Assembly: GCA_919902235.1 (NCBI GenBank)
Contig: CAKKQX010000017.1
Coordinates: forward strand, 1-40,762
DNA length: 40,762 nucleotides
Reading direction: 5' to 3'
DNA from: Burkholderiales bacterium
Lineage (GTDB): Bacteria > Pseudomonadota > Gammaproteobacteria > Burkholderiales > SG8-41
Under the pieces are notes generated by a model. It did no database searches. It had not been told where the DNA came from and was given only the letters and a program-made list of their open reading frames with translations. The position numbers and the translations under genes were made by a program. Shown here piece after piece: positions 6,810 through 40,762 of the stretch (within the stretch, counting starts at the first letter, position 1; every line of letters begins with the position of its first letter).

Positions 6810-7099
6810 CCCTACACAACGCAATCACAGTTGCTGCCAAGGGCGTGACTGATATGGCCGAGCGCGATCCGATGGACGATGTGGTGCACAACAACAAGCT
6901 ATGGGGCGACAAAGTAACTATTCTCGAAGAACGTTACGACGACCTTAAGGCGCTGGTGCGGGAGTTGCGGGCGGCGCTGGAATTGGTACTGCCAATGGTG
7001 AGGGGGTACGTGTCAATTTATCCGGTTGGAAGCAACGCAGAATATCTCCGCGCCGCCAATGAAGCTCTCGCCAAATTCGCCGAGGGAGAAAGCAAATGA
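6806..7099 (+). CDS. hypothetical protein
   Basis: 97 aa ORF with ATGA overlaps both sides. Confidence 0.55.
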   Translation: MTLHNAITVAAKGVTDMAERDPMDDVVHNNKLWGDKVTILEERYDDLKALVRELRAALELVLPMVRGYVSIYPVGSNAEYLRAANEALAKFAEGESK

Positions 7100-7422
7100 C
7101 CGTCCCGACAGACAAGCAGCGCGAGCGGGCGCAAGAGATTGCGATGGAAATCCGCTCAGCTTGGTTCTTGAACGGCGGCGGCGATCCACGCGATGTAATC
7201 GCCCAAGCCCTCGCCGTCCAAGCCGCGCAGACGGAGCGCGAGACGGTGGAGAAGTGTGTATTGAAAATTAAAGTGCGAGCCGAACAATGGAAGCGATCTG
7301 GCAAACCGCCTGATGGACACACAGACGAAACTGTAATGCGGCGTAGGGCAATGACTGACGCAGCAAATGAGTTGTACGCCGATATTCTCGCCCTCGTGCC
7401 AGCGCCGGCGGGTTTGGTCTAA
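7096..7422 (+). CDS. hypothetical protein
   Basis: 108 aa ORF; ATGA overlap with upstream gene. Confidence 0.55.
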   Translation: MTVPTDKQRERAQEIAMEIRSAWFLNGGGDPRDVIAQALAVQAAQTERETVEKCVLKIKVRAEQWKRSGKPPDGHTDETVMRRRAMTDAANELYADILALVPAPAGLV

Positions 7423-7494
7423 CGCGCTTTCGGATAACCGAATCTGGCCGCGCCCTCCTGGGCCGCGTGCGGGCAGAGAAGAAGGGATAAGGAG

Positions 7495-7698
7495 ATGACG
7501 GACGTATGGGCGTATATCACACACAAGGATGGTCGCATTGGCGGCGTCGTTACGCCTGCGGTCGGCAAGCGCGAACTGCGAAGGTTTCTAGGTGACTTCG
7601 CCATCGACGGTTACGAAATCAAGACCGCCCAAAACCGCGAAGAATATCTTGCGTTCATTAAAGGCAAACCGTTCGGCCCCGACAAGAAGGAAGGCTGA
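7495..7698 (+). CDS. hypothetical protein
   Basis: 67 aa, SD-like AAGGAG upstream (gggataaggagATG). Confidence 0.6.
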   Translation: MTDVWAYITHKDGRIGGVVTPAVGKRELRRFLGDFAIDGYEIKTAQNREEYLAFIKGKPFGPDKKEG

Positions 7699-7806
7699 CA
7701 TGACGGGAATTATCACCTTGATGTAGCATGAACTGGCCCTAGTGTTCTACACGACAGGCCGGCGATGTTAACGGGGTGATGGTTCCCTCTTCAAAGGAGA
7801 GGGAAA

Positions 7807-7992
7807 ATGGAGAAGGCTACCAAACGAGAGATCATAACTAAGATTTCGGCTCTATTGAAAGAATGGTTTCCCGGAGGCTACCCAGGTGACCGCAAGCTAG
7901 ATGACGTTGAAACCGCCGTCTTAGCTGAGAAAGTCTTCGACGAGATCGCTGGTCATGTATCTGTACCGAAAACTCCCAAACGTCCTTCTTGA
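7807..7992 (+). CDS. hypothetical protein
   Basis: 61 aa, SD AAAGGAGAGGG upstream; last rightward gene before the convergent late block. Confidence 0.55.
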   Translation: MEKATKREIITKISALLKEWFPGGYPGDRKLDDVETAVLAEKVFDEIAGHVSVPKTPKRPS

Positions 7993-8125
7993 GCTTCAAT
8001 ATGCGACGCTCAGTTGCCGACTGATCCGTACACCCCCGGCTTTGATCGCCAGATGAAGACGTCACTTGAACGCGCTGAAGAAAGCGACCGCGCTGTGAGA
8101 ATTGCACTTACAAAATACGAGGCTC

Positions 8126-13870: not shown

Positions 13871-14386
13871 TTAAACCTCCACGAGCTTCCAGTAAGCGGT
13901 TTCCACGGGCTTGTAGCCCAGCCGCTCGAACATCCTGCCTATGGTAGTCTTGCCGCTGGCGGATTGCAATTTCGCGCGCAGGTGCAGCTTCTCGGCCAGG
14001 GAAATTCTGACCATCTTGCGCCCCCGTTCCTTCGCCACCTGGGCCAGCGCCTTCTCGGCCAGCCGGAACAGGGTGTAGCCGGTCAGGCCGCGCCGCATGC
14101 CGGGCCGCAGGTAGAACACGTCGCAGGTCGCGTGCAGCAGGGTCTTGTAGTGGATGTGGTCGTTCAAGAAGAACCAGACGTACCCGGCGAGCGCGCCGTC
14201 GACGCGGCAGACGAAAGCCTTGAACACGCCGATGCGCTCAAGCTGCTGGTATAGCGCCCAATCCGGGTTGAGCGGGACGCGGCCCTTGTCGAGCGCGACT
14301 TCCCACCAATGCTCTATAGCGATGTCCTCAAGATCGTCGGCCAGGAGGCGCGAGATGCTCTCCCAACCGTAGCTCGTCTCGGGCAA
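13871..14386 (-). CDS. GNAT-like acetyltransferase/phage virion-module protein
   Basis: ...VFKAFVCRVDGALAGYVWFFLNDHIHYKTLLHATCDVFYLRPGMRRGLTGYTLFRLAEKALAQVAKERG...FERLGYKPVETAYWKLVEV: GNAT fold pattern. Confidence 0.7.
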   Translation of the reverse strand: MPETSYGWESISRLLADDLEDIAIEHWWEVALDKGRVPLNPDWALYQQLERIGVFKAFVCRVDGALAGYVWFFLNDHIHYKTLLHATCDVFYLRPGMRRGLTGYTLFRLAEKALAQVAKERGRKMVRISLAEKLHLRAKLQSASGKTTIGRMFERLGYKPVETAYWKLVEV

Positions 14387-15106: not shown

Positions 15107-17146
15107 CTACCTTGTGCACCAATACGCAACGACGGCGGTTCCGGTCGGCGTGCTGGTTTTCGTCCAGTTGAGCGTGAAGCCGTCGGCATCCATGGATTGC
15201 ACGGTCGCGGTTTGGTAAGCCGTGGTGCTGGTGCCGACTTTGATGGCGTAGGATGCCGACGCCTGCGTAAGCCCCGCACCCGCGTCGCCGATAGTCAGCG
15301 AAATGTTGGTCGTGACATCGGACGCGCCGAAGCCGCCGACGTTGGACGACACGCCGTCGAAAAACACACAAACCGCAGGGGCAAACCCAACGCCCGTGAC
15401 CGCTTGGGTTCCGCTGGCCGTGGTCAGGTCGCGCGTCGCGAAAGAGATTTTGTTTTTCGTCGCTCCGCCGACGGTGGCGATGATCGCCGCCGCTTGCGTG
15501 GCGGTGAGATCGGCGGGCGCGCCCGTACCCGCTCCGCTGGCCCGGCCCTTGATCGTCGTTTGGGCCATGTCGGACATGGAAATAGTGCCGGTCGCCACAA
15601 TCGGCGACGGCGAAGCGGTGAGGCCGGTGCCGGCGGCGACGCTGGTGACCGTGCCGCTGCCCGCCGCCGTGGTCCACGACGGATTCGCGCCAGCTCCGGC
15701 CGTCGTCAGCACTTGTCCGTTCGTGCCGGGGGCGAGCGCCGTCCAGGTCGAGGCGTCGCGATAGATGACCGCGCCTTGCGTGGTGGTGATCGGAGTGAAG
15801 TACGGGTCGAGGCCGGTGAGCCCCATGAAGAACTCGCCGGTAGCGCCGGGGCCGGTCGAACTGATGGCGGCGGCGCCGTTCCCCAAAAGCACCGATCGAT
15901 CAATGAATGAAGTCTGCCCGGTGCCTCCAAATCGAATTGGAGAGATGCCCAGCGCCCATCGCGTCGCGCCATTGGAGGTATAGCACACACTAGCGAACGC
16001 GGTGCTGATAGTCTGATTCGAGGAACTGCCGTTGATCGTATCGCCGCCAGTGACTGCAATGGCCAAAGGCGCGGAGGTGGTGAGAACTCCAGCGCTATCG
16101 TAAATGCAAACGGACTGCCCAGCATTCACCGAATTTGCCGCTGCCAACGTCCATGTGCGGGTTGGCGTCAAAGCCACGCTCGTAATAACCGTGCGATCCG
16201 TGGGAAGAATTTGGTAATTGACATCGCCCAACGTGGTCATCTGGTCGATATTCAGGCCCGCCGACGAGCGGGCGCCGGCCGCCGTGGTGTTCGCCGTGCC
16301 GCCGCCCGATAGGCCGAGGGTCAGAAAATCCGGGTCAACCGACGCGCCAAGCGACACTAGCGGCTTGCCCGCCGTGCCAGGCCCGGTGCTGCTGATCGCC
16401 GACGCGCCTTGGCCGAGCAACACGGCATGGTTCGTGTTCGCGATCTGTCCGGTGCCGCCGTAGGGAACCGTGAGCGGAGCGGCCACGTCGGCTGTAAACG
16501 CGCACGCGCCCGACGTGCACGGACTGCCGCCGATGGACAGCGTGGCGTTCGTGCTGCTGATCGTGACGCCGGTAAGCGTTCCCTCGGTCGAGGTGATGGT
16601 CGTGCCGGAAATGGCGAGACCGGCTCCAAGAGTGATTTCCTGCGGGGGGCCGCTGCTGGCCGTGCCGCGCCCCAGCAGCCGCGAAGCCGTCACGTCCTGG
16701 ATTTTGGCGTAGGTCACGGCGGCGTCGATGATTCCGGTCGTCGTGATAGCGTCCGTGGCGACCTTGGCCTGCGTCACCGCCGCGGCCTGGATGTTCGTGG
16801 TGCTGACGCTGTTCGCGCCCAGCGGCCCCAGATCGAACGCGCAATTTCCGCTGACGCAGGGCGACCCGCCCACCGAGAGCGTGCCGTCCGTGCTGCTAAT
16901 CGTGACGCCGGTAACGTCCGCGCCGCTCCCGCACACCTGGAAACTCGGATCGCTCGCGCCGCCGTTCGAGGTCAGGCACCAGCCCGCCGTGCCGGGAGCC
17001 GCGCCGCGATAGCCGACGACGCCGGGACCGGGCGAGATTAGGACAGAACGATTGGTGACGACGCCGGGGTTGGTCTGTGCCAGGGCGCCGACGATGCCCG
17101 CGCACAGGATCGCGGTCGCGACGAGAAGGCGTTGCCACGGCTTCAT
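15107..17146 (-). CDS. tail-fibre-like protein with N-terminal signal peptide
   Basis: 679 aa; [28 protein letters not shown]..., repeated GVTISSTxxTLSxGGSPCxSGxCAF and GGTGQ...[15 protein letters not shown] modules, C-terminus [18 protein letters not shown]...[14 protein letters not shown] before the ATG. Confidence 0.8.
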
Positions 17147-17628
17147 GGAGAAACCTCAACATGCCGCCAAGTGCGTCTGTTCAAAATGCACCACAGCGGC
17201 CCCTGTGTAAGACCAAACATGTAGCGAAGTTCCCTGCCGCCCCACCCTTCTTTTTTCTTGCGGAATATCTCCAAAATATCAGCTTCCGTAACTTTCGCGC
17301 CGACCACCCGGCTCCCCCACCTATGGCGGCGCTTGGCAACTTTATCCGCCACGTTGTCAGCATGCGTTCCGATAAAGAGATGATCCGGGCGCACGCAGGG
17401 AGGATTGTCGCAGCGATGACAGACACAAAGACCATCAGGCACACGCCGCTCGTTTGCCATCTCCCACGCAACCCGGTGGGAAGAAAGCCATCTCTTTTGC
17501 CCGTGTTGGCTTATGGTAAAATTACCCCGGTTCCATTGAGTGCGCGGGCCGCGCCAAATCCAACAGCCATCGGTCTTTTCGACCTTGCTCCAAAATCGTG
17601 CGCGGTCCCTTTCAGTAAGCGCCGTCAT
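17143..17628 (-). CDS. HNH endonuclease (homing-type)
   Basis: [20 protein letters not shown]...[56 protein letters not shown]_3 pattern. Confidence 0.9.
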
Positions 17629-18059
17629 GTGGTTACCCAACCTGTGCCGTCAGGCCGCGGGCGCAGCGCCAGGGCCGCGCGGTCGCCCGCCACGGCGTAG
17701 CTCGAAAGCCCGTCGATGGTCTCGACTCCGGCCGGGTTGACGGTGATGTTGAAGCTCGACGCCACGCCCTTGCTGTCCTTGAAGATCACCGGGAACATCG
17801 GGCCATAGGCCGCGTACCACGAAGCCGAGGTGGGCAGCGTCGCCGTCGAAGCTCCATTGACCGCGGGCTCGATAAAATAGACGAACACCGGCGCGGCGAC
17901 GGTGAACGCGCCGCTCACGGTGCGGATCGTGCCCTGGAAGATCAGGCTCAGGATGGTGATGAAGAAATCCAGATCGTTGATCTGGTTGATGAGGTTGTTC
18001 AGCGCCGCGCGGTTCTGCGTCAGGTCTTGCGGCCCCGAGATGAGCGGAATGCGCGCCAC
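17625..18059 (-). CDS. fibre/appendage-like virion protein
   Basis: [28 protein letters not shown]...[54 protein letters not shown]: typical fibre C-terminal motif. Confidence 0.7.
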
Positions 18060-18063
18060 GACG

Positions 18064-18492
18064 TTATTTCCAGAACAAATTTATCGTGAATACCGAGGCT
18101 GCGGGGATGACCGTGCTGTTGTCGGCCGCGCCCGAGACGACGCAGTAGGCGATGCCCGTGCTGAACGTCTCGCCCCAACCCAGATAGATGTTCGACACGA
18201 CGCCCGTGGTCAGGCTCGGGATCACGAAGCGCGCCTTGGGCGTGTCCGTGCCGCAGGTCGGGGCCGCCGCCTTATCGTAGAGCTTGAGCCATGCCGGGCT
18301 GGAACTGATGCTCGACAGGGACAGGCCATACACCTGGCCGAAGGTCGCCTTGGCGACGCCCGCGTTGTCGCTGGCCGCCGCGATGAAGCTGGTGGTGGAC
18401 AGGCCGCCGGACGTGGGCGGCGGGTTCTGGGCCGCCAGGGGAAGCGCTACGGCCAGCGCCAGGAACAGGCCCGCGACAAAACGACGCAGCAT
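18064..18492 (-). CDS. small appendage-like protein with signal peptide
   Basis: MLRRFVAGLFLALAVALPLAAQNPPPTSGG...; SD GAGGAGGG upstream supports the start. Confidence 0.65.
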   Translation of the reverse strand: MLRRFVAGLFLALAVALPLAAQNPPPTSGGLSTTSFIAAASDNAGVAKATFGQVYGLSLSSISSSPAWLKLYDKAAAPTCGTDTPKARFVIPSLTTGVVSNIYLGWGETFSTGIAYCVVSGAADNSTVIPAASVFTINLFWK

Positions 18493-18512: not shown

Positions 18513-18533
18513 GCGCGCTCCGGCAGAGCGCGC
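18513..18533. repeat. perfect 8-bp inverted repeat (stem-loop) in divergent intergenic region
   Basis: GCGCGCTC-cggca-GAGCGCGC. Confidence 0.8.
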
Positions 18534-18565: not shown

Positions 18566-19873
18566 ATGCCGACATTCGACAAGGGATTGCGCTTCGCCGG
18601 CGCGGCCGCGCTGTTCGCCGCGCTGCTGGTTCCGCTGATCGTCGTGCCTGGGCAGATGTTTCCGTTCATCGCTCCGCGCGCGCAGTTTTTTCGTCTATGC
18701 GTCGATGCGGCGACGGTCTGCCTGGGCCTGCTGATCCTGCGCGGCGTGATGACCTTCCCCCGCTTGGGAGTCATCGGCGTGTGCTTCGGCCTCTACGCCG
18801 CCGCCATGCTGGCGGCCGACCTCATGGCCTGGCGGCCGTCCCTGGCGCTGTTTTCCACCATCGAGCGATTCGACGGCTACATGGCGTTGGTCTGGGCGTT
18901 CGGCTATTTCGCGGCCGCGGCCGCGCTGCTGCGCGGGCTCTGGCGGCACTATCTCGCGGGCATGATGATCGTGGCCTTCCTGGCCCTGGGCGCGGCCGTC
19001 TATCAGCTCGCCGGCTGGTTCGCTACCGGCTTTCCGACGCCGCCCCGCGTGTACGGCTCGATCGGCAACCCGTCCTACCTCGGCACCTATGCCGCCCTGT
19101 GCCTGTTTCTCGCGGCATGGCTCTGGAAGGCGGGCTGGCGGCGCTGGGCTGCCCTCGGGTTCGCCTCAAGCCTGGTGTCATTGGTGCTGTCCCAGACGCG
19201 GGGAGCGGTATTAGGGGCCATCCTGGGCGGTTTGGCGGCTATGTGGCTCTCCGGCCGCTGGCGCGCCAAGCAAATCGCCATTTTCGGCCTGGCGTCCCTG
19301 GTCCTGGCCGGAATGGTGGCCTACGCCCTGCCCGACTGGCCTTCGCTTGCCCGATTCCGCCCCACAATCGCCAACGAGCGATGGGAGGTCTGGGCCGTGG
19401 CGCTCGATGCCTTCACGCGCCATCCCGTGCTGGGATGGGGCCACGAAGGCTTCGCGCAGGCTTTCCTGATGCTGGCGGACAAGGGCGCGCCGCAGGGGAT
19501 GCTACCCTACGACCGCGCGCACAACCTGCTGCTGGACAAAATGGTGGAAGGCGGCTTGCTGGGGGCGGGCGCCTACGTGGCCCTCTTCCTGGCCGCTGCC
19601 TCGGCTGCCCGCAAGCAGCCCATCCTGATCGGGTTCCTGGTCTGCTACGCCGTCTCGAACATGTTCCTGTTCGAGGTTCTGGTCACGCAGGCCGCGTTCC
19701 TGGCGTTCCTGGCGATGCTAGTAGGCGGGGACGTAGCGCAGCGCCCCGGTGTCGTCGCGCACGGTGAACCACTTCACGATGGTCGTGCTCGCTCCCGTCG
19801 GGCCGAGCGAGGTCGTGGTCACGGCCACGGTGCCGTTGGCCGTCCACGCGCCGGTTCCGGCGAACTGGACTAG
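18566..19873 (+). CDS. O-antigen ligase/polymerase family (Wzy/WaaL-like) membrane protein
   Basis: 435 aa polytopic protein; GSIGNPSYLGTYAAL, LSQTRGAVLGAILGG, NERWEVWAVALDAFTRHPVLGWGHEGFAQAF, RAHNLLLDKMVEGGLLGAGAYV are Wzy_C hallmarks. SD AAAGGGGG before the ATG. Confidence 0.9.
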   Translation: MPTFDKGLRFAGAAALFAALLVPLIVVPGQMFPFIAPRAQFFRLCVDAATVCLGLLILRGVMTFPRLGVIGVCFGLYAAAMLAADLMAWRPSLALFSTIERFDGYMALVWAFGYFAAAAALLRGLWRHYLAGMMIVAFLALGAAVYQLAGWFATGFPTPPRVYGSIGNPSYLGTYAALCLFLAAWLWKAGWRRWAALGFASSLVSLVLSQTRGAVLGAILGGLAAMWLSGRWRAKQIAIFGLASLVLAGMVAYALPDWPSLARFRPTIANERWEVWAVALDAFTRHPVLGWGHEGFAQAFLMLADKGAPQGMLPYDRAHNLLLDKMVEGGLLGAGAYVALFLAAASAARKQPILIGFLVCYAVSNMFLFEVLVTQAAFLAFLAMLVGGDVAQRPGVVAHGEPLHDGRARSRRAERGRGHGHGAVGRPRAGSGELD

Positions 19874-20137
19874 GCCGGGATTGGACAGGCCGCCGGTGAT
19901 GAGGAAATTGGTGCGCGGCGTGCCGGTGCCCCCAGGAGCCACGGTCGAGTTGATGTTGTTGATGAGCGTGTTCAGATCGCGCAGCGCGGCGGGGAACTGG
20001 ACCGACGTGGTGGCGGTGCCTGGGCCGGTGAACAGCGACAGGCTGCCCGCATAGACGCCGGGGATGACCAGCACCCCGACCATGAGGCCCAGGCCGACCA
20101 CGATGCCCGAGAAGATTTTCCGCAGAAAGTCCTTCAT
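19718..20137 (-). CDS. appendage-like protein with signal peptide
   Basis: MKDFLRKIFSGIVVGLGLMVGVLVIPGVYAGSLSLFTG...ALRDLNTLINNINSTV...; SD TGGAGG upstream. Confidence 0.65.
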   Translation of the reverse strand: MKDFLRKIFSGIVVGLGLMVGVLVIPGVYAGSLSLFTGPGTATTSVQFPAALRDLNTLINNINSTVAPGGTGTPRTNFLITGGLSNPGLVQFAGTGAWTANGTVAVTTTSLGPTGASTTIVKWFTVRDDTGALRYVPAY

Positions 20138-20199: not shown

Positions 20200-20820
20200 C
20201 TACCGCAAGGGCCCGAGCATGCTCCGCCAGCCCTCGCCGTCGGGAGACGGCCGCCACAGATCGGCGGCCGCGACCAAACTGCCGTGCGTTTCCTTGGGAT
20301 AGTAGACGTTCTCGGCGCATAGCGGCATCGCCTGGTTGATCTTGCCGCCCAGCGTGTTCAGGCCCAGCTCGCCCAGGCGCTGCCACGGAGTGCCCTTTTC
20401 CTCGTCGGTGTAGATGTGGACCCAGCGCAGCGAGCGATCGCGCAGCGCCCGGTATTCGTCGCCCATGTCCGCGCGCACGGGCGTCGCGACCGTGACGACA
20501 GTATCTATCCGCAGGCCGAAACGCGCGGCATAAGCCGCGACCTGGCCGCCATGGGAATGCGCGATCAGCGAAACCATGCGACCGGGGCATTTGAGAGCCG
20601 CGTACCACGCCAGCGCGCGGCCGGCCGCGTCCCAATGGAAGTTGTTCCTGTCCACGCCATCCAGCGCGGTGCTCCAATAAAACGGGTCGCTGTCGTCGAG
20701 CGGCTGATAGCCGCCCTCCTTGAGCATCCGCCAGAACTCGGAGCCGGGACGCCACCAATCGGCGTTAGCCCCCGTCTCCAGGCCCCATGTGCCCGCTATC
20801 GTTACGACCGGAGCGGCCAT
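20200..20820 (-). CDS. alpha/beta hydrolase (lipase/esterase-like)
   Basis: MAAPVVTIAGTWGLETGANADWW...MVSLIAHSHGGQVAAYAARFG...VVTVATPV...KETHGSLV: nucleophile elbow and late His. Confidence 0.8.
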   Translation of the reverse strand: MAAPVVTIAGTWGLETGANADWWRPGSEFWRMLKEGGYQPLDDSDPFYWSTALDGVDRNNFHWDAAGRALAWYAALKCPGRMVSLIAHSHGGQVAAYAARFGLRIDTVVTVATPVRADMGDEYRALRDRSLRWVHIYTDEEKGTPWQRLGELGLNTLGGKINQAMPLCAENVYYPKETHGSLVAAADLWRPSPDGEGWRSMLGPLR

Positions 20821-21350
20821 TACAGGCCTGGGATGCCCACCGACATCAGCGCGCCGCGCACCCCCACCTTCCCGGCGATGGCGAGGATGGCCTGACGCTC
20901 GTCCATGATCAGCGGCGCACACGCGATGGTCAGTTCGTTATGCGTGTTCTGCGAGTTCGGGCTGTTCAGCAGGTCGCGCTTCTTCTGGAAGGCCGAGAAC
21001 GCGCCGGCCACCTGCCCGACCGTGGCCTGCGGATCGCCCAACCCCTTAACCTTCTCCAGCAGCTTTTCCCAGCACGGGGCCGATACCGTGTCGTTGTGCG
21101 CCCGCGCGTCGGCTAGGGCCACGGTCAGATCGGCCGCCGTGAACGCCAGGAGAAACTTCACCGGATCCACGTCGCCCTCGGCGTCCGTCGCAGCCAGCTT
21201 GGCCTGCTCGCGGTTCGCCTGGATGCCGCCGCACGACGCCATGACGAGGGCCACGACGAACAGCGCGGCGGACAGGAGGAGGCCGCGGCCCACGGCGCGC
21301 GCGTCGCGCATGCCGGCGGCCATTTCTTCCAAGAACGACAGCGACTTCAT
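20820..21350 (-). CDS. phage lipoprotein, lysis module
   Basis: MKSLSFLEEMAAGMRDARAVGRGLLLSAALFVVALVMASCGGIQANREQ...: lipobox VMASC|G; TAATG overlap with the hydrolase. Confidence 0.7.
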   Translation of the reverse strand: MKSLSFLEEMAAGMRDARAVGRGLLLSAALFVVALVMASCGGIQANREQAKLAATDAEGDVDPVKFLLAFTAADLTVALADARAHNDTVSAPCWEKLLEKVKGLGDPQATVGQVAGAFSAFQKKRDLLNSPNSQNTHNELTIACAPLIMDERQAILAIAGKVGVRGALMSVGIPGL

Positions 21351-21712: not shown

Positions 21713-22195
21713 CTAAACCATCGGCCTAGGTGTATCACCCGGCCAGTTTCCGGTCAAAAGCATGTCCGCGACCGCCCTCGCGCGCGCTGGCGTCTGCCGC
21801 GCCCACCGGCTCGCCAGTGCCTCGTCGCGCGCGCGGTCCCAATCCCCACGCCGAATCGCGTCCAGCATGAGATTGAAGCCTTCCAGCCTCTGCCGGCCCA
21901 TCTGATAGGCCATGTCCGCCAGAGCCGCCTGGCGCGCGGGCGCGATCGTCTTGAACGCCTCCCGCCCGACCGCCAGGGCTGCATCGTTGGCCGCGCCGGA
22001 CAGCCGGATCGCCAGTAGAATGCCGCACTCGCCCTGCGTCGCCGGATTGACGCTCAAGGCGAAGCCCCAGCCGAAGGTAGGGTTGCCCTTGATCCTGTCA
22101 CCAGGCCCGAGCTTCTCGCCCGTGGCGTCGTCGTAGATGTAGCCGCGAAAGCCCTCGTGAAGCTTTATCAGGTCTTCCAGGCTGCGGATTGCCAT
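21713..22195 (-). CDS. GH24 lysozyme (endolysin)
   Basis: LIKLHEGFRGYIYDDATGEKLGPGDRIKGNPTFGWGFAL: E...D...T catalytic arrangement of T4-type lysozymes. Confidence 0.9.
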   Translation of the reverse strand: MAIRSLEDLIKLHEGFRGYIYDDATGEKLGPGDRIKGNPTFGWGFALSVNPATQGECGILLAIRLSGAANDAALAVGREAFKTIAPARQAALADMAYQMGRQRLEGFNLMLDAIRRGDWDRARDEALASRWARQTPARARAVADMLLTGNWPGDTPRPMV

Positions 22196-22676: not shown

Positions 22677-23765
22677 CTAGTTGCGAATTATCTTGTTCAC
22701 GACGGCGGTTGGCTGCACGTTCTCGCTCGACCCGCCGGCGCCGCTCGATACCGCGCCCGACGCGCCCGTGACCGCCCCGTTGCTCGGCCGAACGATGTCC
22801 AGGTTCGGCGGCGTGCCGACAGCTCCAAACAAGGAGCCGACGCCATCGGCGGTCACACGCAAAGGCGTGGGAGTCGAGCCCGTGGAGATTCCTCGCGCCG
22901 CCGCGCTATCGACATAGGTTCCCGCCGCATGGGTGTGCGCCTGCATCCGCTGATCGCCGCAGGTCGCCCCCAGCGTCGTTCCGGTGCAGCCGCTCGTCGC
23001 CGTGAGACGGCTCGCCGCCGACCCGCCCATGTCGTCCTTGCCGGCCGCCAAGCGCCCGCGCAGGTCCGGCAGCCGGAAATTCCCCGCGCCCTCGCCGCCC
23101 GTGTTCCAGTTGGTCGAGATCGCCGTGTAAAGCCCGGCATAGCCCGCCTGGGCCACGATCTGGCCATAGGTCAACTGCCAGCCAGCCGGGGCGGTAGCCC
23201 CGGCGAAGTCCTTGACGACCCCCGGATCGTCGGTAACGGACGGATTCAGCAGCAGATAGCGGCTGCCGTCGTACATCAGGTTGTAAAGGCCGCCCGAGAC
23301 GATCTCGCCGCCGCCCAGCGTCGTCACGCCCGCGCTGCCGGTAGCCCGGTAGATCGCCGTCGCGCCCGTGGAGACCGCGTTCATCGTGGTCGCGCCAGTG
23401 TTCGACACCGTGGAGATGAACGACAGGATTTTCCCGGCCACCAGGGTGAAAGCGTTGGGCGAGACCGTCGTGACCACCAGCGTGTTGGGCGTACTGGTGA
23501 CGGCGGTGGCGTAGTAGTTGTTCGTGCCGCCCTGGGCCGCGCTCAACGGCGTGGTCAGCCCGGACAGGCTGGTGATGTCGCTGTTCGCGCCGTTGGCCGC
23601 CGCGTTGGCGTTCACGCAGGCTATCGTGGCGTTGAAGTTCGCCATCACCTGCGTCGCGCTGGCGGTCGTGCCTTCCTGCAAATTGAACGGAGCCGAACCG
23701 CAGATCACCGCCTGGGCGGGCGACGCAAACAGCAGCGCCGCCAGGAGGGCCAGAATTTTCTTCAT
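22677..23765 (-). CDS. tail-collar-domain fibre protein with signal peptide
   Basis: MKKILALLAALLFASPAQAVICG...; FAGATAPAGWQLTYGQIVAQAGYAGLYTAI...GNFRLPDLRGRLAAGKDDMGGSAASRLT = phage tail collar domain. Confidence 0.85.
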   Translation of the reverse strand: MKKILALLAALLFASPAQAVICGSAPFNLQEGTTASATQVMANFNATIACVNANAAANGANSDITSLSGLTTPLSAAQGGTNNYYATAVTSTPNTLVVTTVSPNAFTLVAGKILSFISTVSNTGATTMNAVSTGATAIYRATGSAGVTTLGGGEIVSGGLYNLMYDGSRYLLLNPSVTDDPGVVKDFAGATAPAGWQLTYGQIVAQAGYAGLYTAISTNWNTGGEGAGNFRLPDLRGRLAAGKDDMGGSAASRLTATSGCTGTTLGATCGDQRMQAHTHAAGTYVDSAAARGISTGSTPTPLRVTADGVGSLFGAVGTPPNLDIVRPSNGAVTGASGAVSSGAGGSSENVQPTAVVNKIIRN

Positions 23766-36234: not shown

Positions 36235-36723
36235 TCACGCCACCCGCTGCACGACGACCTCGGGAGCGCCGTCCGCCCCCTTCCGCACGCTCCACTTCCC
36301 CTTCCCCTCCGACTTGGCGCGCTTGTACGCGATGGCCCCCAACCGCGCTACAACCTTTGCGATGTCCTCGCCGAACTCCACCGGCACCACGAACGCATCG
36401 CCGACCGTGCACTCGGCCCACGGATACTTCGCCCGGAGCGCCGGAGAACCGCCCCGCGCCGCCGGAACCGGAATGTCCCGCCGAATCTCGTACTCCGCCT
36501 CGATCGGCCGCTCGGGCTTGCCGGCCAGGTCGCCCGCCACAGCCGGAACCGCAATCCGCGGCGCTTCGCCGTCCCGGCCGGCTGCCTCCGCAGGCCGGCT
36601 TTCCGCCACGTCGAGGGGGACAATCCGAGGGCACCCCGGCTGGTGCAGGCCGCCAAGTTCCAGACAATCCGGGCAAAGCCCCCGCGCACCGCCCATCCCG
36701 CCCCCTCCACCGCCGCTAGACAT
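36235..36723 (-). CDS. conserved phage protein (DUF7303-like)
   Basis: Start at 36723 with SD TTGGAGG; C-terminal ALRAKYPWAECTVGDAFVVPVEFGED... pattern. Confidence 0.6.
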   Translation of the reverse strand: MSSGGGGGGMGGARGLCPDCLELGGLHQPGCPRIVPLDVAESRPAEAAGRDGEAPRIAVPAVAGDLAGKPERPIEAEYEIRRDIPVPAARGGSPALRAKYPWAECTVGDAFVVPVEFGEDIAKVVARLGAIAYKRAKSEGKGKWSVRKGADGAPEVVVQRVA

Positions 36724-36844
36724 GCCCTCAGTCCTCCAAGGTTGACCCGTGGTGCGCCGAAACCCCCTCGGAGCCCCCCACCCTAGCCAAAAGTACCTCA
36801 AAGCTCGCTGGCGGGCATCCTGGGAGGTCGGCGCTTCTCACACC

Positions 36845-36879
36845 ACCCTACCACAGCCCTAACTCCTGTCAACCGGAAA
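36845..36879 (-). promoter_or_regulatory. candidate late-operon promoter with TTTCCGGTTGACA element
   Basis: Minus strand TTTCCGGTTGACA (36879-36867) - 16 bp - TAGGGT (36850-36845). Confidence 0.5.
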
Positions 36880-37191
36880 GTGGAAAAGATATATGAACTA
36901 TGGATGGCATAGGCAACTTTCTCTCACCCCCGTCGGAATACCAACCGTTCTCCCCACACACATTCACATCTACCCATTACCCACTACCATAACCACCCAC
37001 CCAGGCTTTGGAAACTAATACAGACAGTACTATATACTCTATCTAGCTTACTATAACTCTATGCTTTCAGGTAGGTGGTACTATCATACACAACTCTACA
37101 CTAAGCTACATATAGCGATATATACTCTAAACTATCTATCATCAACTACTACTTACATAACTCATAACTCTAAACTACTTATACTCTACTC

Positions 37192-37221
37192 TAGTTCTTT
37201 CTTTTATCTTAAGAAGAACTA
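37192..37221. repeat. central inverted repeat of the AT-rich island
   Basis: TAGTTCTT (37192-37199) ... AAGAACTA (37214-37221), nested with TTCTTTCTTTTAT ... ATAAGAAAGAAAGAA. Confidence 0.75.
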
Positions 37222-37341
37222 TAAGAAAGAAAGAATAGAAGTAGTAATAGGTGTATATATTCTAGGTTCTACCTTCCTTACTCTTGTCTTATCTTGCACA
37301 TGTTAGACTCTATAGAACTAGATAGAGTACATAATATATAA

Positions 37342-37370
37342 TTGACAGGTTAGGGTTATAGGAGTATAGG
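37342..37370 (+). promoter_or_regulatory. candidate rightward promoter for the pentapeptide/SNF2 operon
   Basis: TTGACA (37342-37347) - 17 bp - TATAGG (37365-37370). Confidence 0.45.
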
Positions 37371-37696
37371 GTTATGAGTATGCAGTTAGCAATGGGGAGT
37401 ATAGAGAGATGAGTAAGGCCAGAGTGAGGAAGCGGAGTTGGATGGTACGACGGGCCGGCTGTCCGCGGGCTGGGACGATGGGACATTGCCACGTCTACAA
37501 CTCTAGCGGGCAATTCGCTGGGCTGGTCTGCGTGAACAGCCTGGCGCCTATCGCGCTGCGCTGACCCCTCCCCAAGGCCAGGTAGGCCGCCCTTCTCCCC
37601 AGGATCGTCCGTGGTGCGCCTGGGATGGGATGGACAGGGGACACAGGCCGATAGAGGCTCGACACGCGCCACGGCTCAAACAACGGGGAAATCGAA

Positions 37697-38299
37697 ATGA
37701 AATTCGAGGTTAAAAACCGCCTTACCGGCGCGGTTCAATTCGTCGCGGAAATCGAGTGCGAGGAGGGCGCCACATATTCGCTGAAGCTCGGTCTGGCCGT
37801 CAGGTGGGGTTTCAAAAATAATGCCTGCCTGGGCGGGGCCGACCTGCGCGGGGCCGACCTGGGCGGGGCCTACCTGGGCGGGGCCTACCTGCGCGGGGCC
37901 TACCTGGGCGGGGCCTACCTGGGCGGGGCCGACCTGCGCGGGGCCTACCTGGGCGGGGCCGACCTGCGCGGGGCCGACCTGCGCGGGGCCGACCTGCGCG
38001 GGGCCGACCTGGGCGGGGCCGACCTGCGCGGGGCCTACCTGGGCGGGGCCTACCTGCGCGGGGGCAAACTCGCGGACAACAACCCGCTGGCGATGCTTGG
38101 CCAACCCGATGGATGGGACGCTTTCACCTACTTCACCGAGAAGGGCGAGCAACGTGCGCTTGTCGGCTGCCATGACTTCACGCTGGCCGAGGGCCGCGCG
38201 TATTGGGCCGGCAAGGAAAATCGCCGCGAGGTCATGGCCGCGCTGGGCTATGCAGAAGCGATTAGTCGGATTCGTGGCTGGACCAAGAACCGCGCGTGA
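37697..38299 (+). CDS. pentapeptide-repeat protein
   Basis: 200 aa with 15 perfect L[GR]GA[DY] pentapeptides and a degenerate 16th, plus a C-terminal domain (VGCHDFTLAEGRAYWAGKENRREVMAALGYAEAISRI). Confidence 0.85.
   Translation: MKFEVKNRLTGAVQFVAEIECEEGATYSLKLGLAVRWGFKNNACLGGADLRGADLGGAYLGGAYLRGAYLGGAYLGGADLRGAYLGGADLRGADLRGADLRGADLGGADLRGAYLGGAYLRGGKLADNNPLAMLGQPDGWDAFTYFTEKGEQRALVGCHDFTLAEGRAYWAGKENRREVMAALGYAEAISRIRGWTKNRA
37829..38068 (+). repeat. 15-bp tandem repeat, about 16 units
   Basis: Unit ctg[g/c]gcggggcc[g/t]ac with two variable bases per unit. Confidence 0.9.
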
Positions 38300-40119: not shown

Positions 40120-40762
40120 CTACCAGCCCTCCGCCGCTTCGCTGAAATCCCTGGCCCGCGGCGCGTCGGCCGGCACGAAGCAGCCGCGCCGCCACTCCAG
40201 CTTGAGCTTCCCGCCGTTGGCCGAGTAGTTGCTTTTCATGGTCTTGAGCCAGCGCACATACTTGTCGCCCTCGTCCTTGTTGCCGTCCTTGGTGAGATAC
40301 AGGCGCGAGCGCACGCTGTTGTTCCACGCCCGGTTGCCGCTGATCCCGCTGCCGCTGTTCAAGCCCTCGTTCGATGGATGGGCCGTCAGGATCACCACGC
40401 CCTGTATCTTGATCGCCAGGGCGCGCAAGGCGGTGATGAACCGGCGGACCTGGTTGCGCACGATCTCGTTGCCGCTGAACACGTCCGCCACGGTGTCCAG
40501 CACCACGATCTGCGCGCCGTGCTCCTGAACGACATGGGTTAACTGACTCATCAGCGGCTCGGGTCTGCCCCAATCCGTGCGCCGGTCGAAATCCATCAGC
40601 GCGTTTTCCTTGCCCGCGCGCTCGACCATCAGCATGTCGTCCAGGTCGCCCATCTCGATGCCGTATTGCGCGTTGATGTTGAATTGCCGCCGGTGCAGCT
40701 CGTCGGCGTCGTCCTCGCAGCCGAAGAAGCGGTCAGCGAGATCGTGCCGGTCAACGGCGAGG
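40120..40762 (-). CDS. RepA/AAA_25-like replicative ATPase, C-terminal part (joins 1..294 across the ends)
   Basis: FFGCEDDADELHRRQFNINAQYGIEM...IVVLDTVADVFSGNEIVRNQVRRFITALRALAIKIQGVVILTAHPSNEGLNSGSGISGNRAWNNSVRSRLYL; in frame with the left-end fragment when the 25-bp overlap is merged. Confidence 0.85.
   Translation of the reverse strand, partial: LAVDRHDLADRFFGCEDDADELHRRQFNINAQYGIEMGDLDDMLMVERAGKENALMDFDRRTDWGRPEPLMSQLTHVVQEHGAQIVVLDTVADVFSGNEIVRNQVRRFITALRALAIKIQGVVILTAHPSNEGLNSGSGISGNRAWNNSVRSRLYLTKDGNKDEGDKYVRWLKTMKSNYSANGGKLKLEWRRGCFVPADAPRARDFSEAAEGW

Follow-up and report, generated by a model that had tools for sequence, protein, structure and literature searches.

Why would a phage keep a gene of the O-antigen ligase/polymerase family among its tail-fibre genes, and why on the opposite strand? 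The question arises in the window, by which we mean the whole stretch of 40,762 nucleotides analysed here. The original prediction had described a polytopic 435-aa open reading frame (ORF) of this kind, taken it for a moron, and suggested that it remodels the host surface glycan. We verified the coordinates and strand of this ORF, here called wzy (18566 to 19873, + strand; 435 aa plus stop), and the motifs quoted for it (GSIGNPSYLGTY, LSQTRGAVLG, RWEVWAVALDAFTRHPVLGWG, and HNLLLDKMVEGGLLG) were all present in frame. When a codon model was trained on the genes of the window itself, the sole + strand gene that it called between approximately 8.1 and 37.7 kb was wzy, in agreement with the claim that it runs against an otherwise minus-strand late block and fibre cluster.

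The window is a circular phage genome

The window is one contig of a MAG of 390 contigs. Its ends share 25 bp (positions 1 to 25 and 40705 to 40729), which fall within one AAA ATPase gene that is split on the contig into 1 to 294 and 40120 to 40653; the contig also has a 33-bp variant tail. Joining the ends restored a single unbroken frame, which contains a Walker A motif and is similar in part to phage primase/helicase. Because the frame becomes continuous in this way, the contig is a circular phage genome of approximately 40.7 kb. Recognisable genes include those for the terminase, portal, major head protein, tail collar fibre, and endolysin, as well as a RecE-like nuclease, an Erf-like annealing protein, RusA, and a DNA helicase. 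In agreement with the original prediction, no integrase was detected in the window by PHROG scans of the genes or by searches of the contig for tyrosine (PF00589) and serine (PF00239) recombinases. A 70-aa repressor-like protein is encoded at 1423 to 1635, with which non-integrative (integrase-free) lysogeny may be possible.

Sampling of other genomes in the same class turned up no related portal gene; a portal relative is carried by a contig that belongs to an Acetobacteraceae MAG. Two stretches of low GC content (7000 to 8000 and 36500 to 37500; 51 to 55% versus approximately 66%) lie on either side of the late block, both where the coding strand changes, and are candidate regulatory or replication regions. 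The gene at 37697 to 38299, which adjoins the DNA helicase gene, encodes a protein in which pentapeptide-type repeats, A(D/Y)LxGA, follow one another in a run.

The genuine wzy gene is shorter than its ORF

The coding signal of the wzy frame ended at about 19720 to 19735. Beyond this point the codon model scored as coding the antisense frame of gX (19718 to 20137, minus strand), a gene for a small fibre-cassette protein with an N-terminal signal/transmembrane (TM) segment and a conserved C terminus. The stop codon of gX lies at 19718 to 19720, and the wzy ORF and gX overlap tail to tail by 156 bp. Since the signal switches to the antisense frame at the gX stop, the body of Wzy comprises approximately 386 aa (18566 to 19723, + strand), and the C-terminal ~49 codons (roughly 50; 19724 to 19873, + strand) are antisense read-through across the 3′ end of gX. 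This tail is probably not an evolved domain. The predicted 435-aa frame thus exists, but only its first ~386 aa are genuine Wzy.

The ribosome site that had been claimed for the gene is present but weak to moderate (AAAGGGGGCAAC-ATG). No sigma-70-like promoter was found near wzy, and its codon usage falls within the range shown by the phage's other genes. The divergent gap upstream holds a GC-rich inverted repeat (GCGCGCT...AGCGCGC, 18513 to 18533; folding z-score, −2.0), which has no T-run and was not seen in the relatives L086 and L087 described below.

Wzy has the family signature, fold, and active-site residues of O-antigen ligases

The Pfam profile PF04932 (Wzy_C, O-antigen ligase) matched residues 198 to 337 of the protein (E = 1.4e-21; 77.3 bits versus a cutoff of 31.7), which bears out the predicted family. 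Wzy_C was the sole Pfam domain above cutoff. The predicted polytopic character was likewise supported, by nine hydropathy segments and by a WaaL-like fold in an AF2 model. This model, built from 30 sequences, had a pLDDT of 71.6 and a pTM of 0.68, with a low-confidence N-terminal third; a first model, for which 10 divergent sequences from phages had been used, was discarded, as its pLDDT was 55 and its fold search meaningless. The sole significant fold match in the PDB was WaaL 7TPG (E = 4.5e-6; TM-score, 0.45). A search of PDB sequences with a profile that took in cellular homologues returned 7TPG at 4e-50 and, second, the oligosaccharyltransferase 9RMK at 6e-22.

Residues R212, R272, and H319 of Wzy align with two arginines and a histidine of 7TPG. 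In WaaL the two arginines are phosphate binding, and the histidine is the proposed activator of the acceptor (PMC10920833). It is practically certain that the window ORF encodes an O-antigen ligase/polymerase (Wzy_C) family protein residing in a phage. The two sister proteins, of approximately 300 aa and encoded at the same locus (L079, 1285 to 2202; L082, 1270 to 2166), have tyrosine at the position of the catalytic histidine, and catalysis is therefore not conserved throughout the window's lineage; the sisters may lack activity or may compete with an active enzyme.

Wzy_C genes recur in the fibre cassettes of related phages

Direct searches with the window protein were empty: it matched no PHROG family, tblastn found nothing in 50,697 annotated phage records, and pattern searches of IMG/VR and of GTDB genomes gave no confirmed relative. 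Relatives were therefore reached through the portal protein. Among isolated phages, the portal found two records, over 12% of its length, and none is close. In IMG/VR it found 69 loci with 40 to 57% identity. When 50 related uncultured phage records were searched with PF04932, Wzy_C-like genes were detected in 10 of them (4 above the Pfam cutoff, the rest below), two at the same locus as in the window. A profile of the window protein and these 10 recovered the same 10 from the 50 records and no more. Among records of at least 38 kb, 8 of 27 carry such a gene; a further wzy-bearing phage, L125, was found later. The phage Wzy proteins share the hallmark blocks; two of them, L083 and L084, miss an E value of 0.01 when searched individually against Pfam.

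The relatives keep the structural order g39-g36-g35 (collar fibre), variable cassette, g24-g23-g22-g21-g20. In six of them wzy lies in the variable cassette. In the others (L035/L093, L092, L095, and L125) it directly follows the portal gene, and the fibre-like genes then lie between portal and scaffold. Hence wzy accompanies fibre genes at two genome positions. In G065 and G064 (L086 and L087), wzy is reversed at the window's own locus and overlaps the 3′ end of a gX homologue by 84 and 93 bp, respectively; these gX homologues are 54 to 60% identical to gX over the last 50 aa. The portals of the two phages are only 40 to 41% identical to that of the window. Because locus, strand, and overlap are the same despite this divergence, we conclude with high confidence that wzy is long resident there. 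The recurring tail-to-tail overlap therefore reflects an old shared arrangement, which rules out a recent 3′ truncation in which the native end was lost by recombination at the gX stop. The original prediction had called wzy a moron; if the term is taken to mean a recent insertion with its own promoter, then long residence, phage-like codon usage, and the lack of a detectable promoter speak against it.

In a tree, the window protein and those of L086 and L087 formed one clade (support, 96/94), and the other seven phage proteins, whose genes lie on the late-gene strand, formed a second (90/87). D3 Wzy-beta stood apart. In the second lineage, the HN(D) motif is retained by all seven proteins or by nearly all of them. 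From this topology, Wzy_C genes probably entered the phage clade at least twice; long branches make the deeper placement unsure, and a single origin is the less likely alternative. No integrase was found in the wzy-positive relatives. Close wzy pairs among the relatives are nearly identical, and there are no intermediate relatives usable for dN/dS.

On the cellular side, the best matches to Wzy among 399 genomes of the phylum were approximately 30% identical over parts of the protein, and there was no close relative. The MAG carries a PF04932 gene of its own elsewhere, on a different contig, and this gene is only weakly similar to wzy. None of seven clade Wzy proteins scanned matched a PHROG family, and neither of two searched had a match in the 50,697 annotated phage records; current phage annotation therefore misses the clade's Wzy proteins.

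Genes around wzy in the fibre cassette

The neighbours of wzy described in this paragraph lie on the minus strand. Divergent from wzy across a gap of 72 bp is g28 (18064 to 18492), which encodes a fibre-cassette protein and has a homologue in the wzy-bearing cassette of L092. An HNH endonuclease gene (17143 to 17640; PHROG 1872, E = 3e-26) adjoins the cassette, and 15107 to 17146 encodes a long fibre-like protein (DUF5907 repeat below cutoff; tail tip PHROG, E = 0.001). On the other side, the endolysin gene (21713 to 22195; PHROG 7, E = 1.4e-12) belongs to a lysis group adjoining the cassette. The tail collar fibre (22677 to 23765; Pfam Collar, E = 4.8e-14; PHROG tail proteins) begins with a textbook-like signal peptide, MKKILALLAALLFASPAQA, and is kept in wzy-positive and wzy-negative relatives alike.

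Sec-signal-like N termini, called by a crude heuristic and not by SignalP, are a clade-wide feature of fibre-like proteins. In the window they occur on the products of 22677 to 23765, 19718 to 20137, 18064 to 18492, and 15107 to 17146, and they recur in the cassettes of L086 to L105. Tailed phages assemble in the cytoplasm, and Sec signals on fibre-like proteins are therefore odd. Signal-peptide fibres are also borne by wzy-negative relatives, so we ruled out that they are a wzy-specific trait. A search of an open-access literature library for signal-peptide tail fibres and phage-encoded oligosaccharyltransferases returned nothing relevant.

Three further observations concern this region. The 20200 to 20922 protein, in the lysis/fibre region, is weakly alpha/beta-hydrolase-like (PGAP1-like, below cutoff) and is a possible esterase. 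The 20820 to 21350 product has a lipobox-like LVMASCGG near its N terminus and is a possible lipoprotein beside the lysis genes. A GNAT-type acetyltransferase (13871 to 14386) is kept beside the fibre cassette in most relatives.

Comparison with known systems

The best analogue of wzy is the gene for Wzy-beta of the Pseudomonas phage D3 (NP_061525), and the window gene may work in a similar way. D3 Wzy-beta is a Wzy_C-type membrane protein of 386 aa, like the ~386-aa core described here, and its gene likewise runs against the late genes and is flanked by those for a tail fibre, an HNH endonuclease, and an endolysin. It is the beta O-antigen polymerase of serotype conversion, and its Arg and His motifs are essential (PMC4815439). 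Despite the motif, it failed to complement waaL, that is, transfer to lipid A-core (PMC4815439); the motif alone is therefore not decisive. The two proteins show no detectable homology beyond the motif (BLASTP, E = 0.028 over 22 aa; hhalign probability, 0.3%), and the window protein scores 77 bits against PF04932 versus 22 bits for D3 Wzy-beta. D3 is temperate, with an integrase and with Iap and Oac genes nearby, whereas none of these was recognised in the window phage. No acetylase gene (oac) was recognised among the cassette genes; an iap of ~31 aa would escape these scans.

Another prophage protein, VG_p25 of VarioGold, is an O-antigen ligase family protein with Wzy_C and about 10 TM segments; it is approximately 31% identical to D3 Wzy-beta, and its function is only proposed (PMC9658991). 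Like wzy, the VG_p25 gene is opposed to the late genes, and it adjoins the lysis genes; unlike the window phage, VarioGold is temperate with a tyrosine recombinase. The Acinetobacter prophage genes wzy1Ph and wzy2Ph are reported to alter the linkage of the host surface polysaccharide (capsule) (PMC13228068). They are carried by prophages and act in lysogens, and we liken them to wzy by description, not by sequence. WaaL (PDB 7TPG/7TPJ; CAZy GT121) has its fold, two arginines, and histidine in common with the window protein, at the modest TM-score given above, but it is a cellular ligase, whereas Wzy is phage borne.

A proposed role in remodelling the host surface glycan

Since the Wzy gene is real and many related viruses carry one, infection by such viruses probably changes the sugars on the host cell surface. 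By analogy with the systems above, we favour the reading that the window wzy does so, although with moderate confidence. We infer the membrane orientation, substrate, linkage, timing, and benefit as follows. Wzy would be an inner-membrane transferase of the O-antigen ligase/Wzy_C superfamily with its active site facing the periplasm, where it would use the undecaprenyl-pyrophosphate (Und-PP)-linked glycan units of the host; this enzymatic role is assigned because it is established for the superfamily. Wzy would join these units differently from the host enzyme, acting either as an alternative polymerase in the manner of D3 Wzy-beta or, with lower probability, as an alternative ligase. The outcome would be a changed surface polysaccharide, the very one that the phage's own fibres would recognise. 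Superinfecting phages could thereby be excluded, and fewer progeny would be trapped on cells and debris.

Several findings count against remodelling. No integrase was detected here or in the wzy-positive relatives, yet the precedents act in lysogens. Likewise, no iap or oac was recognised, the sisters have tyrosine for histidine, and no homology to D3 Wzy-beta was detectable beyond the motif.

Alternative explanations

An alternative that we regard as unlikely is that Wzy is a ligase or protein O-glycosyltransferase (WaaL/PglL-like) which puts a host lipid-linked glycan on a phage acceptor, for example, the adjoining Sec-exported fibre-like proteins. Wzy_C is common to WaaL, PglL, and Wzy, and a PglL-type oligosaccharyltransferase was the second PDB sequence match. 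Pilin O-oligosaccharyltransferase genes typically adjoin the gene of their substrate, and the fibre-like neighbours with Sec-signal-like N termini are candidate acceptors; in L090 and L091, wzy overlaps a signal-peptide fibre-like gene by 4 bp. However, such fibres also occur in relatives lacking wzy, and in the window's lineage wzy lies on the opposite strand and is not co-transcribed with the fibres. PglL-type O-oligosaccharyltransferases have an extra C-terminal PglL-type domain besides Wzy_C, although not every enzyme of this type needs it. In the window protein, which ends approximately 50 aa past Wzy_C, no such domain scored above the Pfam cutoff.

Equally improbable is that Wzy is a noncatalytic or competing homologue that blocks the host polymerase or ligase through its substrate or partners and so inhibits receptor synthesis. 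The two sister proteins, shorter (~300 aa) and without the catalytic histidine, would fit, and an inhibitor that acts on the host polymerase is encoded by D3 as well, albeit a different and tiny protein (PMC12826054). Against this, the window protein retains R212, R272, and H319, and the HN(D) motif persists in the other phage lineage.

Somewhat less probable still is a combined reading, in which the integrase-less clade would keep a periplasmic glycan transferase as the working partner of exported fibre-like proteins with signal peptides. The enzyme would decorate these proteins, or the receptor glycan to which they bind, in the periplasm before lysis and would be inherited with the receptor-binding cassette wherever that is sited.

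We also doubt that wzy is merely carried along as a neutral passenger, a gene once captured from a host and retained by chance although it does nothing for the phage. Its presence is patchy (8 of the 27 long relatives), and the intermediate relatives from which selection could be measured are missing. On the other hand, frames and active-site blocks are intact in ten divergent phages of two lineages, one of which has kept the same locus, strand, and overlap despite deep divergence.

Contamination with host DNA, or a chimeric assembly that put a bacterial ligase gene into a phage contig, which the fragmented MAG (390 contigs) with a PF04932 gene elsewhere might suggest, is scarcely credible, as homologous genes lie at the same locus in independent metagenomic viral contigs, the 3′ junction falls on the stop codon of a phage gene (gX), codon usage is phage-like, no close cellular relative exists among the 399 phylum genomes, the MAG's own ligase is weakly similar, and the contig closes into a circle. 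Neither outcome that the original prediction had named as refuting, a missing Wzy_C hit or host contamination, was borne out.

Significance for phage biology

The phage glycan polymerases described in the papers that we found are lysogeny genes of temperate phages. Here, an uncultured clade in which integrases are almost lacking maintains two Wzy_C lineages within its receptor-binding cassette. If Wzy works when infection is lytic or in a carrier state, then lysogens are not alone in remodelling receptors, and the pairing of fibre and wzy would be a readable record of each phage's glycan. Beyond this clade, the best viral fold match to the AF2 model was an uncharacterised protein of the Arthrobacter phage Faja (BFVD A0A3G2KG04; E = 0.007, probability 1.00), which is possibly another phage Wzy_C-like protein.
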